Source: an uncultured Gammaproteobacteria bacterium (lineage in GTDB: Bacteria; Pseudomonadota; Gammaproteobacteria; SZUA-229). Taken from it: 41,377 bases of DNA. The stretch covers positions 1 through 41,377 of the forward strand of contig CAJXZZ010000018.1 of assembly GCA_913065105.1 (NCBI GenBank), written 5' to 3'. This document shows, piece after piece, positions 15,143 to 34,892 of this stretch. Each line of letters opens with the position of its first letter. The first letter of the stretch is position 1. The notes under the pieces were generated by a model, which was not told where the DNA came from, did no database searches, and worked only from the letters and a program-made list of their open reading frames with translations. A program made the translations under genes and the position numbers.

Positions 15143-15173
15143 TAAAAAATCAGTAAAGTACGTCACGGGCATC

Positions 15174-15222
15174 GACACACCGCCATCCCTGGCTCCTTGT
15201 GTCATACCGCCCATCCATGGGC
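15174..15222 (-). repeat. Two-hairpin dispersed repeat, copy A
   Basis: Read on the minus strand, hairpin 1 is GCCCATGGATGGGC (15222-15209). It is followed by 5 bases, then hairpin 2 with arms GACACA and TGTGTC around an 18-base loop containing AGGAGCCAGGG. The element starts five bases after the A-run (minus-strand T-run) of the terminator at 15227-15262. Copies at 31320-31368 and 33225-33276 share loops and spacing but have different, still pairing, arms. Confidence 0.85.
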
Positions 15223-15226
15223 ATAA

Positions 15227-15262
15227 AAAAGCCTGCTCATATGTATATATGAGCAGGCTTTT
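15227..15262. terminator. Bidirectional intrinsic terminator between DUF3501 and Fur-family genes
   Basis: A perfect 16-bp stem (arms 15227-15242 and 15247-15262, loop GTAT) has A/T runs on both sides. It separates two convergent genes. Confidence 0.9.
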
Positions 15263-31287: not shown

Positions 31288-31317
31288 AAAAAAAGCCGGC
31301 AGATGCCGGCTTTTTTT
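31288..31317. terminator. Bidirectional intrinsic terminator between DUF1631 gene and amtB
   Basis: A perfect 13-bp stem (arms 31288-31300 and 31305-31317, loop AGAT) includes GCCGGC and seven A/T pairs, giving T-runs on both strands. It is followed after two bases by repeat copy B. Confidence 0.93.
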
Positions 31318-31319
31318 AT

Positions 31320-31368
31320 GTCCATGGATGGACAGTATGTCACAAGGAGCCAGGGAAGGCGGTGTGAC
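31320..31368 (+). repeat. Two-hairpin dispersed repeat, copy B
   Basis: Hairpin 1 is GTCCATGGATGGAC (31320-31333). After five bases hairpin 2 has arms GTCACA (31339-31344) and TGTGAC (31363-31368) around an 18-base loop containing AGGAGCCAGGG. It starts two bases after the T-run of the terminator at 31288-31317. Against copy A it differs at a few bases, and several of those in the arms are compensated on the other arm. Confidence 0.87.
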
Positions 31369-31380
31369 TATGAAACAAAA

Positions 31381-32670
31381 TTATAAGATATAACCCCTTT
31401 CATCGTGCTGGTTGATATCCAGACCTTCTGTTTCTTCTTCATCAGTAACGCGCAGACCAAGAACCATATCGACAATCTTCAGCGATACAAATGTCGCAAC
31501 AGCGGTAAAAACGATGACTACAATAACACCGGTTAACTGCACACCAAGTTGTGACCCCATATTCATACCTTCGGCAAAACCGACACCACCTAGTCCTGCT
31601 GAAACAAAAATACCTGCCAGCAATGTACCTAATATACCGCCAACACCATGTACTGGAAATACATCCAGTGAATCATCAATTTTAAGTTTCTGTTTAATGA
31701 AGGAAGTCGCGAAGAAACAGACAATGCCTGCACTCACGCCTATAACCAGTGCACCCATCGGTCCGACAAAACCTGACGCAGGGGTAATAGTACCTAGACC
31801 AGCAACCATACCGGTTACTGTACCTAACGCACTGGGTTTACCGTATTTAATCCACTCCATGGTCGCCCAGGTCAATGCACCACACGCCGCACTCACGTGC
31901 GTCACCAACATCGCCATACCGGCATCACCATTGGCGGCAACAGCACTGCCACCATTGAAACCAAACCAGCCGACCCATAACATGCCTGCCCCGGTCACCG
32001 TCATTGTCATATTGTGAGGCATCATCGGCGTTGTCGGGAAACCGTTACGATTACCCATAACCAGCGCACAGACCAAAGCTGCAACACCTGCAGTAATATG
32101 TACCACTGTTCCGCCGGCAAAATCGAGTAGCCCCTGCTCTGCCAGCCAGCCACCACCCCACACCCAATGACACACCGGGAAGTAGACAACACTTACCCAG
32201 ATAACACTAAATAACAACATGGATGAAAATTTCATGCGCTCGGCAAAACCACCGACGATCAATGCCGGGGTGATGATAGCAAAGGTCATCTGGAACATGA
32301 CAAAGACACTTTCTGGCAGAGTACCGCTTAATGATTCACGCGTTACATTGGCTAAAAATGCATTATCCAGTCCACCGATCCAGGCATTCATACTGCCACC
32401 GTCACCAAAGGCTATGCTGTATCCGTAGATCACCCACAGAATACTCACCACACAGGCGATCGCAAAACACTGCATCAAAACAGACAGCACATTTTTGGCC
32501 CGGACTAAACCGCCATAAAATAATGCCAGACCCGGCAAAGTCATAAACAGAACCAGTGCCGTAGAGGTTAATATCCAGGCAGTATCACCGGTATCCGCAC
32601 CCTCTGCCTGCGCCACAGCAGGCAAAAGTATTAAGCCAAATGCCTGCATTAAATGTTTAAAAATTTTCAT
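31381..32670 (-). CDS. amtB: Ammonium transporter AmtB (first copy, with signal peptide)
   Basis: This is an Amt/Rh-type trimeric ammonium channel of the inner membrane. I choose the ATG at 32670, giving 429 residues that begin with a signal peptide ending in AVAQAEG, as in E. coli AmtB. A GTG six codons upstream is possible but lies in a 7-base repeat array. About eleven transmembrane helices follow. The pore twin histidines are in VVHITAGVAALV and FPVHGVGGILG, and AMTFAIITPALIVG-like and DFAGGTVVH segments are typical. It follows glnK on the same strand after 59 bases, the standard glnK-amtB pairing in which PII blocks the channel when nitrogen is plentiful. Confidence 0.96.
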   Translation of the reverse strand: MKIFKHLMQAFGLILLPAVAQAEGADTGDTAWILTSTALVLFMTLPGLALFYGGLVRAKNVLSVLMQCFAIACVVSILWVIYGYSIAFGDGGSMNAWIGGLDNAFLANVTRESLSGTLPESVFVMFQMTFAIITPALIVGGFAERMKFSSMLLFSVIWVSVVYFPVCHWVWGGGWLAEQGLLDFAGGTVVHITAGVAALVCALVMGNRNGFPTTPMMPHNMTMTVTGAGMLWVGWFGFNGGSAVAANGDAGMAMLVTHVSAACGALTWATMEWIKYGKPSALGTVTGMVAGLGTITPASGFVGPMGALVIGVSAGIVCFFATSFIKQKLKIDDSLDVFPVHGVGGILGTLLAGIFVSAGLGGVGFAEGMNMGSQLGVQLTGVIVVIVFTAVATFVSLKIVDMVLGLRVTDEEETEGLDINQHDERGYIL

Positions 32671-32676
32671 AATATT

Positions 32677-32725
32677 TTCACTATTCACTGTTAACTGTTA
32701 ACTGTTAACTGTTATCTATCCACTG
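32677..32725. repeat. Heptanucleotide tandem array, seven units
   Basis: Units on the plus strand are TTCACTA, TTCACTG, TTAACTG (three times), TTATCTA and TCCACTG, followed by CTTTTT. The array fills most of the gap between glnK (stop at 32730) and the amtB start at 32670. It shares unit form and the CACTGCTTTT end with 26885-26919. Confidence 0.85.
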
Positions 32726-32729
32726 CTTT

Positions 32730-33167
<438 letters not shown>

Positions 33168-33224
33168 TCATGCAAGATAGGATATTTTTTTTGATTCGCA
33201 CTCATTGAGCACTTACTTAGATAC

Positions 33225-33276
33225 GCCGCACCGCCCTCTCTGGCTACTTGCGACATACGACCACCATGGATGGTGG
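33225..33276 (-). repeat. Two-hairpin dispersed repeat, copy E
   Basis: On the minus strand hairpin 1 is CCACCATGGATGGTGG (33276-33261). After six bases hairpin 2 has arms GTCGCA and TGCGGC around an 18-base loop containing GTAGCCAGAGA. Arm sequences differ from copies A and B in both hairpins yet still pair (one G-T). It is not next to a terminator. Confidence 0.82.
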
Positions 33277-33295
33277 AAGTGCAGATATTGCATCG

Positions 33296-33309
33296 TTACA
33301 TGGATGTAA
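33296..33309 (+). repeat. Single hairpin of the repeat family, copy F
   Basis: TTACATGGATGTAA has the same CATGGATG centre with arms TTA/TAA. No matching second hairpin is clear, so this is a partial or decayed member. Confidence 0.6.
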
Positions 33310-33361
33310 GTGGTAGAACGGCTCATTATGGCAGGACGCCCGTAAGTAGAATAAGGCATAT

Positions 33362-33404
33362 GTCCATGGATGGACGGTATTAGGGCAATGCAGGAGCAAT
33401 TGCC
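33362..33404 (+). repeat. Two-hairpin dispersed repeat variant, copy D
   Basis: GTCCATGGATGGAC (33362-33375) is followed by GGTATTAG and a second hairpin GGCAAT/ATTGCC (33384-33389 and 33399-33404) with a 9-base loop holding AGGAGC. Hairpin 1 is identical to copy B; hairpin 2 is shortened. Confidence 0.7.
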
Positions 33405-33446
33405 GAGGAGCAGTTATCGAGGAGACCAAGTCGAGCTGTTGCCGAG
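33394..33446 (+). repeat. Short tandem motif GAGCNNTTNYCGAG, three copies
   Basis: GAGCAATTGCCGAG (33394-33407), GAGCAGTTATCGAG (33408-33421) and GAGCTGTTGCCGAG (33433-33446) are related 14-base units, the last two separated by 11 bases. A 13-base identical piece, AGCAATTGCCGAG, also occurs at 38094-38106 in the gap between comM and tviB. Confidence 0.65.
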
Positions 33447-33479
33447 AAGCAAAATCTGTCCGTTTATCTCTGGACATGC

Positions 33480-33527
33480 GTCGCTCCTTGCCATCCATGG
33501 CACCGCGACATACCGTACATCCTGTAC
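33480..33527 (-). repeat. Derived copy of the hairpin repeat next to the amtB terminator, copies C and G
   Basis: On the minus strand, two bases after the terminator T-run, comes GTACA-GGA-TGTAC (33527-33515), then CGGTAT, then arms GTCGC and GCGAC (33509-33505 and 33484-33480) enclosing another hairpin, TGCCATGGATGGCA (33502-33489). This looks like hairpin 1 with new arms plus a hairpin 2 whose loop has received a copy of hairpin 1. Confidence 0.7.
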
Positions 33528-33529
33528 AT

Positions 33530-33558
33530 AAAAAAGGCCGAGTACCGAAGTACTCGAC
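33530..33558 (-). terminator. Intrinsic terminator of the second amtB, with UUCG tetraloop
   Basis: On the minus strand the 9-bp stem GTCGAGTAC/GTACTCGGC (one T-G pair) closes the stable loop C(TTCG)G and is followed by six T residues, 25 bases after the amtB stop. Confidence 0.93.
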
Positions 33559-33582
33559 CTAACATTAACTAGCAGGAGTCAG

Positions 33583-34851
33583 TTATTTGCTAGTAAATTC
33601 CGGATAGGCTTCCAGGCCACATTCACCGATATCAACGCCTTCGTACTCTTCTTCAGCTGATACACGGATACCCATAGTCATCTTAAGCAGGAACCATACG
33701 ATACTGCTGGTAACAAATACCCAGCCGAAGATGGTAGCCGCGCCAATTAACTGGCCCGAGAAACTCACGCCATCATTGGTTAGAGGAACCAACATCAGAC
33801 CAAGCAGACCACATGTACCGTGAACAGAGATAGCACCCACTGGATCATCAATTTTCAGCTTATCGAGGAACACGATTGAGAACACAACTAATACACCACC
33901 GGCTGCACCAAACAGTGTTGCGAGTAATGGTGTTGGAGTAGAAGGTTCTGCAGTAATCGCAACCAGACCAGCTAAAGCACCATTTAATAACATGGTTAAA
34001 TCAGCTTTACCGAACAGTAGACGCGCTGCGATCAATGCTGCAATCGCACCACCAGCTGCTGCGGCATTGGTATTAAGGAAAACCATGGCAACTGAGTTAG
34101 CACTAGCGATATCGCCCAGTTTTAAAACTGAACCACCGTTGAAACCAAACCAGCCCATCCATAAGATGAAAGTACCTAATGTTGCCATTGGCAGATTAGC
34201 ACCAGGAATCGGGTGAACCGAACCGTCTGCACCATATTTACCCTTACGAGCGCCAAGCAGTAACACACCGGCTAACGCTGCAGCAGCACCAGCCATGTGC
34301 ACGATGCCAGAACCAGCAAAGTCAGAGAAACCTAAATCACCTAAGTTATACATGCCAAATACATCAGCACCATTCCATGTCCATGAGCCTTCCATAGGAT
34401 AGATAACACCGGTCATAACTACAGCAAACACCAGGAAGCTCCATAATTTCATGCGCTCAGCCACGGCACCAGAAACAATAGACATTGCAGTAGCAACGAA
34501 TACTACCTGGAAGAAGAAATCAGATGCACTGGAATATACTGCACCTCCAGCGAAACCATCTTCTCTAGCATTAGCCGCTGCCAAAGCATCAGCAACCAAT
34601 GTATCACCACCGGCGATTCCAGATAACATGATGTCGCCACCGTACATGATCGCGTAACCACAAACCATATACATGATGCAGGAAATGGCATACAGCGCCA
34701 CGTTCTTGGTTAAAATTTCAGCGGTATTTTTTGAACGGACCAGACCAGCTTCTAACATTGAGAAACCAGCTGCCATCCACATAACTAACGCACCGCATAC
34801 CAGAAAGTAAAAGGTATCGAGTGCGTATTGTAATTCGAGTACTTGATCCAC
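33583..34851 (-). CDS. amt: Ammonium transporter (second copy, no signal peptide)
   Basis: This is a second Amt channel of 422 residues. The best start is GTG at 34851, with GGAGG eight bases upstream; a TTG five codons earlier overlaps that ribosome binding site and is unlikely. Unlike the first copy it has no cleavable signal peptide and begins directly with helix 1 (ALDTFYFLVCGALVMWM...SMLEAGLVRSKN). The pore histidines are in IVHMAGAAAAL and SVHGTCGLLG. It follows a second PII gene after 41 bases and ends at a UUCG-loop terminator. The two Amt proteins are clearly diverged paralogues, probably with different affinity or regulation. Confidence 0.95.
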   Translation of the reverse strand: MDQVLELQYALDTFYFLVCGALVMWMAAGFSMLEAGLVRSKNTAEILTKNVALYAISCIMYMVCGYAIMYGGDIMLSGIAGGDTLVADALAAANAREDGFAGGAVYSSASDFFFQVVFVATAMSIVSGAVAERMKLWSFLVFAVVMTGVIYPMEGSWTWNGADVFGMYNLGDLGFSDFAGSGIVHMAGAAAALAGVLLLGARKGKYGADGSVHPIPGANLPMATLGTFILWMGWFGFNGGSVLKLGDIASANSVAMVFLNTNAAAAGGAIAALIAARLLFGKADLTMLLNGALAGLVAITAEPSTPTPLLATLFGAAGGVLVVFSIVFLDKLKIDDPVGAISVHGTCGLLGLMLVPLTNDGVSFSGQLIGAATIFGWVFVTSSIVWFLLKMTMGIRVSAEEEYEGVDIGECGLEAYPEFTSK

Positions 34852-34892
34852 GTTGAGATCCTCCAAATTAAATTAATTTATTTCAGAAAAAA

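Follow-up and report, generated by a model that had tools for sequence, protein, structure and literature searches.

A dispersed two-hairpin repeat behind intrinsic terminators of Gammaproteobacteria resembles REP and BIME elements

The window analyzed here, 41,377 nucleotides long, is one whole contig (C18) of an uncultured gammaproteobacterium whose genome comprises 3.06 Mb in 147 contigs. At 31381-34866 it carries a PII gene flanked by two ammonium transporter genes of different subtypes. Modules made of two small hairpins (h1 and h2) adjoin the end of one transporter gene, and others lie between the second transporter gene and the PII gene. A further module follows a gene of the Fur/Irr type. 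The features, read from the sequence and supported as given in parentheses, are:

15171..15224, minus strand: complete h1+h2 module; h1 GCCCATGGATGGGC, h2 GACAC..GTGTC (the genome's best covariance-model match, 82.3 bits, E 1.2e-17)
15225..15258, minus strand: the Fur/Irr-type gene's terminator, a stem-loop plus T6 run that the 15171 module follows directly (orthologous sites, most without a module)
31295..31317, plus strand: terminator stem-loop GCCGGC-AGAT-GCCGGC and T7 run, directly 5' of the 31318 module (group statistic)
31318..31371, plus strand: complete h1+h2 module; h1 GTCCATGGATGGAC, foot AGTAT, h2 GTCAC..GTGAC with GCC-AGGGAA-GGC (80.1 bits, E 4.3e-17; fold z -3.1)
33222..33276, minus strand: third reported copy; inverted h1 CCACCATCCATGGTGG (33261-33276), then h2 with an AGAGAG loop, lacking GGA (38.1 bits, E 2.5e-6; fold z -3.13)
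33296..33309, plus strand: lone inverted hairpin TTACATGGATGTAA within the compound element
33362..33375, plus strand: lone inverted h1-type hairpin GTCCATGGATGGAC within the compound element
33477..33529, minus strand: fourth module, with h2 of the mirrored type; h1 GTACAGGATGTAC, h2 GTCGC-GGT-GCCATGGATGGC-AAGGA-GCGAC; directly behind a terminator (45.7 bits, E 2.8e-8; fold z -1.73)
33530..33559, minus strand: the ammonium transporter gene's terminator, with stem-loop GGTCGAGTAC..GTACTCGGCC and a T6 run, immediately preceding the fourth module

A preliminary description had reported three copies of one architecture, at 15174-15222 (minus), 31320-31368 (plus) and 33225-33276 (minus). All three are present with the arms as described. 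The common architecture holds for the first two copies; in the third, hairpin 1, read along the hairpin-2 strand, is CATCCATGG and thus inverted relative to the others. The hairpin-2 loop of this copy is AGAGAG, without any GGA. The three copies are unlikely to have arisen by chance, since AAGNAGCCAGNGANGGCGG with up to three mismatches occurs five times in the window against 0.13 expected, and the three mismatch-free occurrences are the reported copies. CCATGGATGG occurs five times exactly, and seven times with at most one mismatch where 2.06 are expected. The RNA fold z-scores of the three copies are -3.1, -2.7 and -3.1 (-3.13 for the copy taken as 33222-33276), and that of the fourth module is only -1.73. 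This full module, an addition to the earlier account, shares a gap with the third copy; the same gap, between the ammonium transporter gene and the PII gene, holds the two lone inverted hairpins. By its sequence, the stretch 33222-33529 may be regarded as a single compound element of two modules with two inverted hairpins between them. Also new is that both plain copies and the fourth module begin directly behind the T-run of a terminator.

One unit of about 52 nt consists of TATG, hairpin 1, GGTAT and hairpin 2. Hairpin 1 follows the pattern NNNCA(N)GGA(N)GNNN, and in hairpin 2 outer arms surround AAGGAGCC-ANGGAN-GGCGG. The helices have 5, 6 and 3 pairs in 14 modules aligned from the genome itself, from which we built a covariance model. 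Distant relatives use other letters and keep the plan of the unit, as in CGCGAGAGGCAGGAGCCGGCAGCG or CGCGGGAGGCAGGACGCCGGTAGCG. The loops are mostly CA(N)GGA(N)G while the arms covary strongly. When hairpin-2 loops were located without using their letters, 180 of 190 were A(N)GGA(N), a count biased upward like that for hairpin 1 because many loci were fetched with a pattern that contains the loop. Among 188 hairpin-1 sites, 149 form a 4-bp stem, 137 of these with an A(N)GGA loop; 39 lack such a stem, and 9 are inverted. The foot is GTAT at 178 of the 190 hairpin-2 sites and GTAG, GTGG or CGTC at three; the hairpin-1 foot, outside this count, is mostly ATG.

The preliminary description held that most arm differences are compensated, so that the fold appears to be kept, and it called for a covariance model, a search of the genome and its relatives, and a statistical test of covariation. 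Many further copies were found, their arm changes are mostly compensated, and covariation exceeds that of shuffled alignments. In the 14 own-genome modules there are 24 two-sided cells against 8.1 after shuffling. The percentage paired, the two-sided cells and the covariation score exceeded all 500 shuffles; the two of the five measures that count pairs or types did not. Among 140 distinct modules, 164 two-sided cells compare with 56.4 (+/- 9) in shuffles and 47 in the best slid control, 90.7% of cells are paired, and all five measures exceed all shuffles, in an alignment that leans towards structure as its rows (150 of 179 matches aligned) were fitted to the model. The bases of columns 87/123, the outermost hairpin-2 pair, fail to pair in 81 of the 140 rows. 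At the two covarying hairpin-2 pairs G-U outnumbers A-C by 40 to 9, with a rough p as the copies are related, and at the conserved pairs the bias is reversed (10:32). We had considered this asymmetry as a test for the functional strand; the variable and conserved pairs contradict each other, leaving a hint only. The bases just outside the hairpin-2 helix (model columns 23 and 52) also co-vary, with TT at 61, GC at 52 and AA at 36 of the 190 sites. The covariation of A with A and T with T there (window 33222-33529, loci L035-L204) is not Watson-Crick pairing.

To determine how widespread the element is, we searched with the model, scoring a limited number of candidates per genome. The genome itself has at least 53 matches at E<=1 (150 of 1134 candidates scored). 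At E<=0.01, at least 30 of 58 relatives have matches, counting the genome itself. All 18 genomes of the genus have them, with at least 1 to 97 each (99 candidates scored per genome), G011 having a single weak match only. Across the class, with only 15 candidates scored in each genome, at least 31 of 369 have matches at E<=1e-4, and at least 28 of the 272 sampled gammaproteobacterial genera have the element. A pattern scan of named genomes gave at least 111 stretches; among those listed, the titles are of gammaproteobacterial, proteobacterial or Pseudomonadota MAGs, some bearing the label Thiotrichaceae, Sedimenticola or Kangiellaceae. The carriers are marine bacteria. A plasmid or phage origin found no backing: one 66-base stretch gave no match with blastn, and one strict pattern found no stretch in viral contigs.

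That the repeat belongs to no named family, as had been stated, is borne out by the elements searched against Rfam 15 (4227 families, TwoAYGGAY presumably among them). At the gathering threshold there was no match on the elements of the window, and a permissive search of one window gap and five loci gave none on elements. The matches that did appear permissively were MicF (E 2.4) on a terminator in the window gap, L20_leader (E 1.3) on the terminator before the array of locus L103, overlapping that array by 7 nt, and miRNA-like families elsewhere in loci L099 and L103. No paper describing the element was found in the open-licence literature, a scope outside which most subscription papers fall, and the accessible parts of PMC12306157 and PMC2864571 hold nothing that matches it.

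Units mostly start behind a hairpin and a T-run, usually an intrinsic terminator. With MITE copies and array interiors excluded, a stem test found a hairpin plus T4 at 72 of 95 array starts compared to 23 of 1220 random positions; 23 of the 95 starts lack it by the same test. The test was passed by three of 16 starts within MITEs and by none of 11 array-internal starts. At least four T end within 3 nt of hairpin 1 at 73 of 118 distinct array starts. Orientation is one-sided: among 91 starts whose two flanks both leave enough room, the hairpin and T4 precede 68 on the same strand and follow one on the opposite strand. Arrays contain one to four units (83, 21, 9 and 5 arrays, respectively) with a tandem period of mostly 52. 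When sites were grouped by their neighbor genes, which we recognize as including rpoS, pilB and moxR, several species carried arrays at them. The arms differ between species, whereas the units of one array often have almost identical arms.

Presence at a given terminator is patchy. Behind the Fur/Irr gene, where up to 400 nt were read, the element follows the T-run directly in two of 12 informative genomes (G000 and G010) and none is seen in the other 10; G014 contributed only 213 nt, and a thirteenth genome was excluded as its contig ends after 36 nt. Behind amtB, in 330 nt inspected by reading for 14 of 16 matches, the element is intact only in G000. A copy in G001 reads as decayed, G004 perhaps retains a remnant, a lone inverted hairpin lies further off in G009, and the other ten have nothing recognizable.

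Filled and empty sites are also found within two host repeats. Thirteen copies of a palindromic MITE, 12 of them in the JALWKV MAG and one in JALULB, contain a single unit, and four copies (three JALWKV, one JAFLJY) are uninterrupted. The gap is 50-51 nt in 12 of the 13 interrupted copies, and an alignment of five filled and two empty copies gives an insert of 51 nt with its border within a T4 run. In JAFLJY a second, unrelated host repeat, a hairpin followed by GTTTAC, is empty in five copies and filled in 10, with the border at GT/TTAC. Behind the unit the filled copies read TTTAC as in the empty form (4 of 10), TTAAC (5 of 10), or run into a second unit (1 of 10). Because element patterns were used to fetch the loci, ratios of filled to empty copies are biased. 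Neither repeat shows a target duplication, although one or two T could hide in the T-run. The filled MITE copies share one site and may go back to one event after which the MITE itself spread, and empty copies could be precise losses. The insertions into the MITE and into the JAFLJY repeat look like two events following the same rule. The MITE is roughly 150 bp long with ends GTAACTRCTCAG; MAGs from at least two gammaproteobacterial families carry it, either with one unit inside or uninterrupted (loci L097, L100, L111, L121, L127, L139, L144, L151, L157, L167, L176 and L187). In L313 and L327, which come from two distant genomes, the element is embedded in a different palindromic repeat with the end GCGGAGTT. 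This may be a third host repeat; no empty copy of it was found among the loci examined.

The preliminary description had left the choice between a structured RNA and a REP-like DNA element. The insertion evidence favors the second. We consider the family a non-autonomous, REP/BIME-like mobile DNA element, with a probability of roughly 55%, given its dispersed, tandem and patchy units, its landing rule, and its precise gain or loss in two host repeats. A transposase acting in trans on single-stranded DNA would read the folded strand, recognizing the hairpins, the GTAT and TATG feet and the CA(N)GGA(N)G loops. We infer an HUH-like enzyme because the units contain hairpins, land strand-specifically and leave no visible duplication. 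It would join the unit into T-runs exposed next to a DNA hairpin, for which intrinsic terminators would be the commonest place, and tandem arrays may form when units insert again, or are duplicated locally, at the same border. Cleavage at AT guided by the GTAT foot, by the rule published for GTAG REPs in the accessible part of PMC8266576, was rejected as it fits neither empty site.

Such a mover was sought among the RAYTs, a link that had been suggested. None was found by family searches of the genome itself, its relatives and 369 genomes of the class, or in the flanks of 50 loci, which cover part of the listed Y1 genes. The sole Y1-transposase match in the genome itself (L034, 237-530) is broken by a stop codon and has no h1+h2 module beside it. 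No module lies within about 1.5 kb of 30 Y1 loci of relatives, 11 of them from the genus; these loci gave one weak h2-like match with five mismatches and one h1-like match. Among 20 further stretches, one has a module, beside a broken Y1 remnant, and three more have a lone h1-like match. Element matches number 5, 7 and 30 in G015, G016 and G017 (65, 84 and 97% complete), respectively, and none of these three genomes has a Y1 match. Over the 369 genomes, Y1 is encoded in 25 of 31 with the element and 216 of 338 others, which is not significant (p 0.075). Neither flanking nor association thus supports a RAYT as the mover. No mobility gene recurs among 531 clustered ORFs within 1.5 kb of arrays; the largest cluster (85) is mostly ORFs reading through the element, and the others look by reading like orthologous host genes. 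It is possible that the mover is an enzyme since lost, of another type, or acting from elsewhere.

We also compared the element with known systems. Group IIC introns insert behind terminator hairpins. Unlike them, the 52-nt unit is too short for ribozyme domains or a reverse transcriptase and has no Rfam intron match in the searches above. IS200/IS605 elements insert strand-specifically 3' of a short target with no duplication. The element differs from them in having no linked TnpA gene and a T-run next to a hairpin as its target; recognition through hairpins and a guide tetranucleotide on their 5' side, as the accessible part of PMC8266576 gives them, are points of likeness. From classical MITEs it is set apart by the lack of a visible target duplication, though one or two T could hide, and by unit ends that are not inverted repeats.

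GTAG and CGTC REPs, the latter without a dedicated transposase, are defined in the accessible part of PMC3733652, and REP recognition and REP-flanked genes are described in those of PMC8266576 and PMC6006769, respectively. Like the GTAG REPs, BIMEs and REPINs of PMC3733652, as far as that part goes, the element consists of short, dispersed, clustered extragenic hairpins with conserved unpaired foot letters, occurs in both orientations in compound elements, is patchy between relatives, and is common in Gammaproteobacteria. It is a dispersed, clustered, palindromic repeat as GTAG REPs are, and differs from them in its foot (GTAT/TATG, not GTAG/GTGG), in a unit of two different hairpins in direct order with variable arms and nearly fixed loops, and in landing behind a hairpin and T-run; a RAYT (TnpA_REP) flanked by elements was not found in the searches above. 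With CGTC REPs it shares the status of a REP-like family lacking a dedicated transposase. As the accessible part of PMC3733652 describes them, those carry a CGTC tag on stems of 8-9 bp and are mainly alphaproteobacterial, whereas the element has no such tag, stems of 3-6 bp, tandem direct arrays and gammaproteobacterial hosts. Judged from its sequence, the element resembles REPs and BIMEs in its working while lacking their tag and flanked RAYT, and is set beside them rather than among them. It would add a REP-like class with a clear landing rule, hairpin plus T-run, and a clean collection of sites with and without a unit, making the spread of REPs without a dedicated transposase directly testable.

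The loops suggest the principal rival explanation, which may also be an additional role: binding of CsrA/RsmA. By this explanation the repeats are a dispersed CsrA sponge: low-level read-through of the terminator ahead of a unit would make RNA tails that titrate CsrA. Each unit would offer two or three putative A(N)GGA sites, with two placed in the loops of its hairpins like those of CsrB, and selection for binding would keep both loops and stems. The accessible part of PMC7652899 gives CsrB repeats as CAGGA(U/A/C)G and the SELEX consensus as RUACARGGAUGU, with hexaloops and short stems; the loop consensus of the units matches such sites, and the SELEX consensus is close to GTACAGGATGTAC. Precedent exists in the E. 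coli rrA/B/F RNAs, which are made by terminator read-through and bind CsrA in vitro according to the accessible part of PMC8144298. The genome encodes CsrA, A(N)GGA fills 180 of 190 hairpin-2 loops and 137 of 149 stemmed hairpin-1 loops (with the upward fetch bias), and the excess of G-U at the covarying pairs (p rough) is as expected if the GGA strand folds. However, the conserved pairs have the opposite bias, and compound elements mix hairpin orientations, so that part of them has no GGA on either strand; the copy at 33222-33276 keeps its stems with no GGA. Genus g137 (G159, 95% complete; G273, 55%) has elements and no CsrA match, and CsrA is encoded in 27 of 31 element genomes and 286 of 338 others (p 1.0). 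The precise insertion into host repeats is left unexplained. Unlike CsrB, CsrC and RsmZ, with which it shares repeated short hairpins and loops of the CAGGA(U/A/C)G type as far as the accessible source goes, the element forms DNA repeats dispersed behind many terminators and not one RNA gene, has inverted hairpins, and binds CsrA only putatively. We regard CsrA binding as an unlikely account of the family. Less likely again is a combination, in which a mobile element homing to terminators, moved by neither a RAYT nor a known IS transposase, carries CsrA-binding hairpins and forms a genome-wide sponge metered by read-through. If the loops do bind CsrA, mobile repeats would be linked to a global regulator.

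By a generally known mechanism, template switching inside a hairpin copies one arm onto the other, and functionless hairpins could in that way stay paired with no selection on the fold. Copying and homogenizing do seem to occur, given that orthologous arrays differ in their arms between species while units within an array are often nearly identical. Copying fails to explain the near-fixed loops, the feet (GTAT at 178 of 190) and the GCC/GGC core beside variable arms, or the G-U over A-C bias at the variable pairs, and we think this explanation improbable. Least probable is a local RNA component of terminators that acts as a second barrier to read-through or to 3' exonucleases and spreads by ordinary recombination. 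This would suit the position behind terminators and the arrays that several species carry at the same terminators but not the insertion into a MITE and another repeat, the absence from most orthologous sites of the two genes tested, or a copy number that ranges from 1 to 97 within one genus.

A second dispersed repeat was noted in the genome itself (loci L011, L022 and L024 on contigs C10, C3 and C7, and further places). It reads AAT(T/C)CGCCAGGGAAGGCG, followed by GCGCGCAGGGATAGCGCG in the copies read, and there too hairpin loops are CAGGGA.
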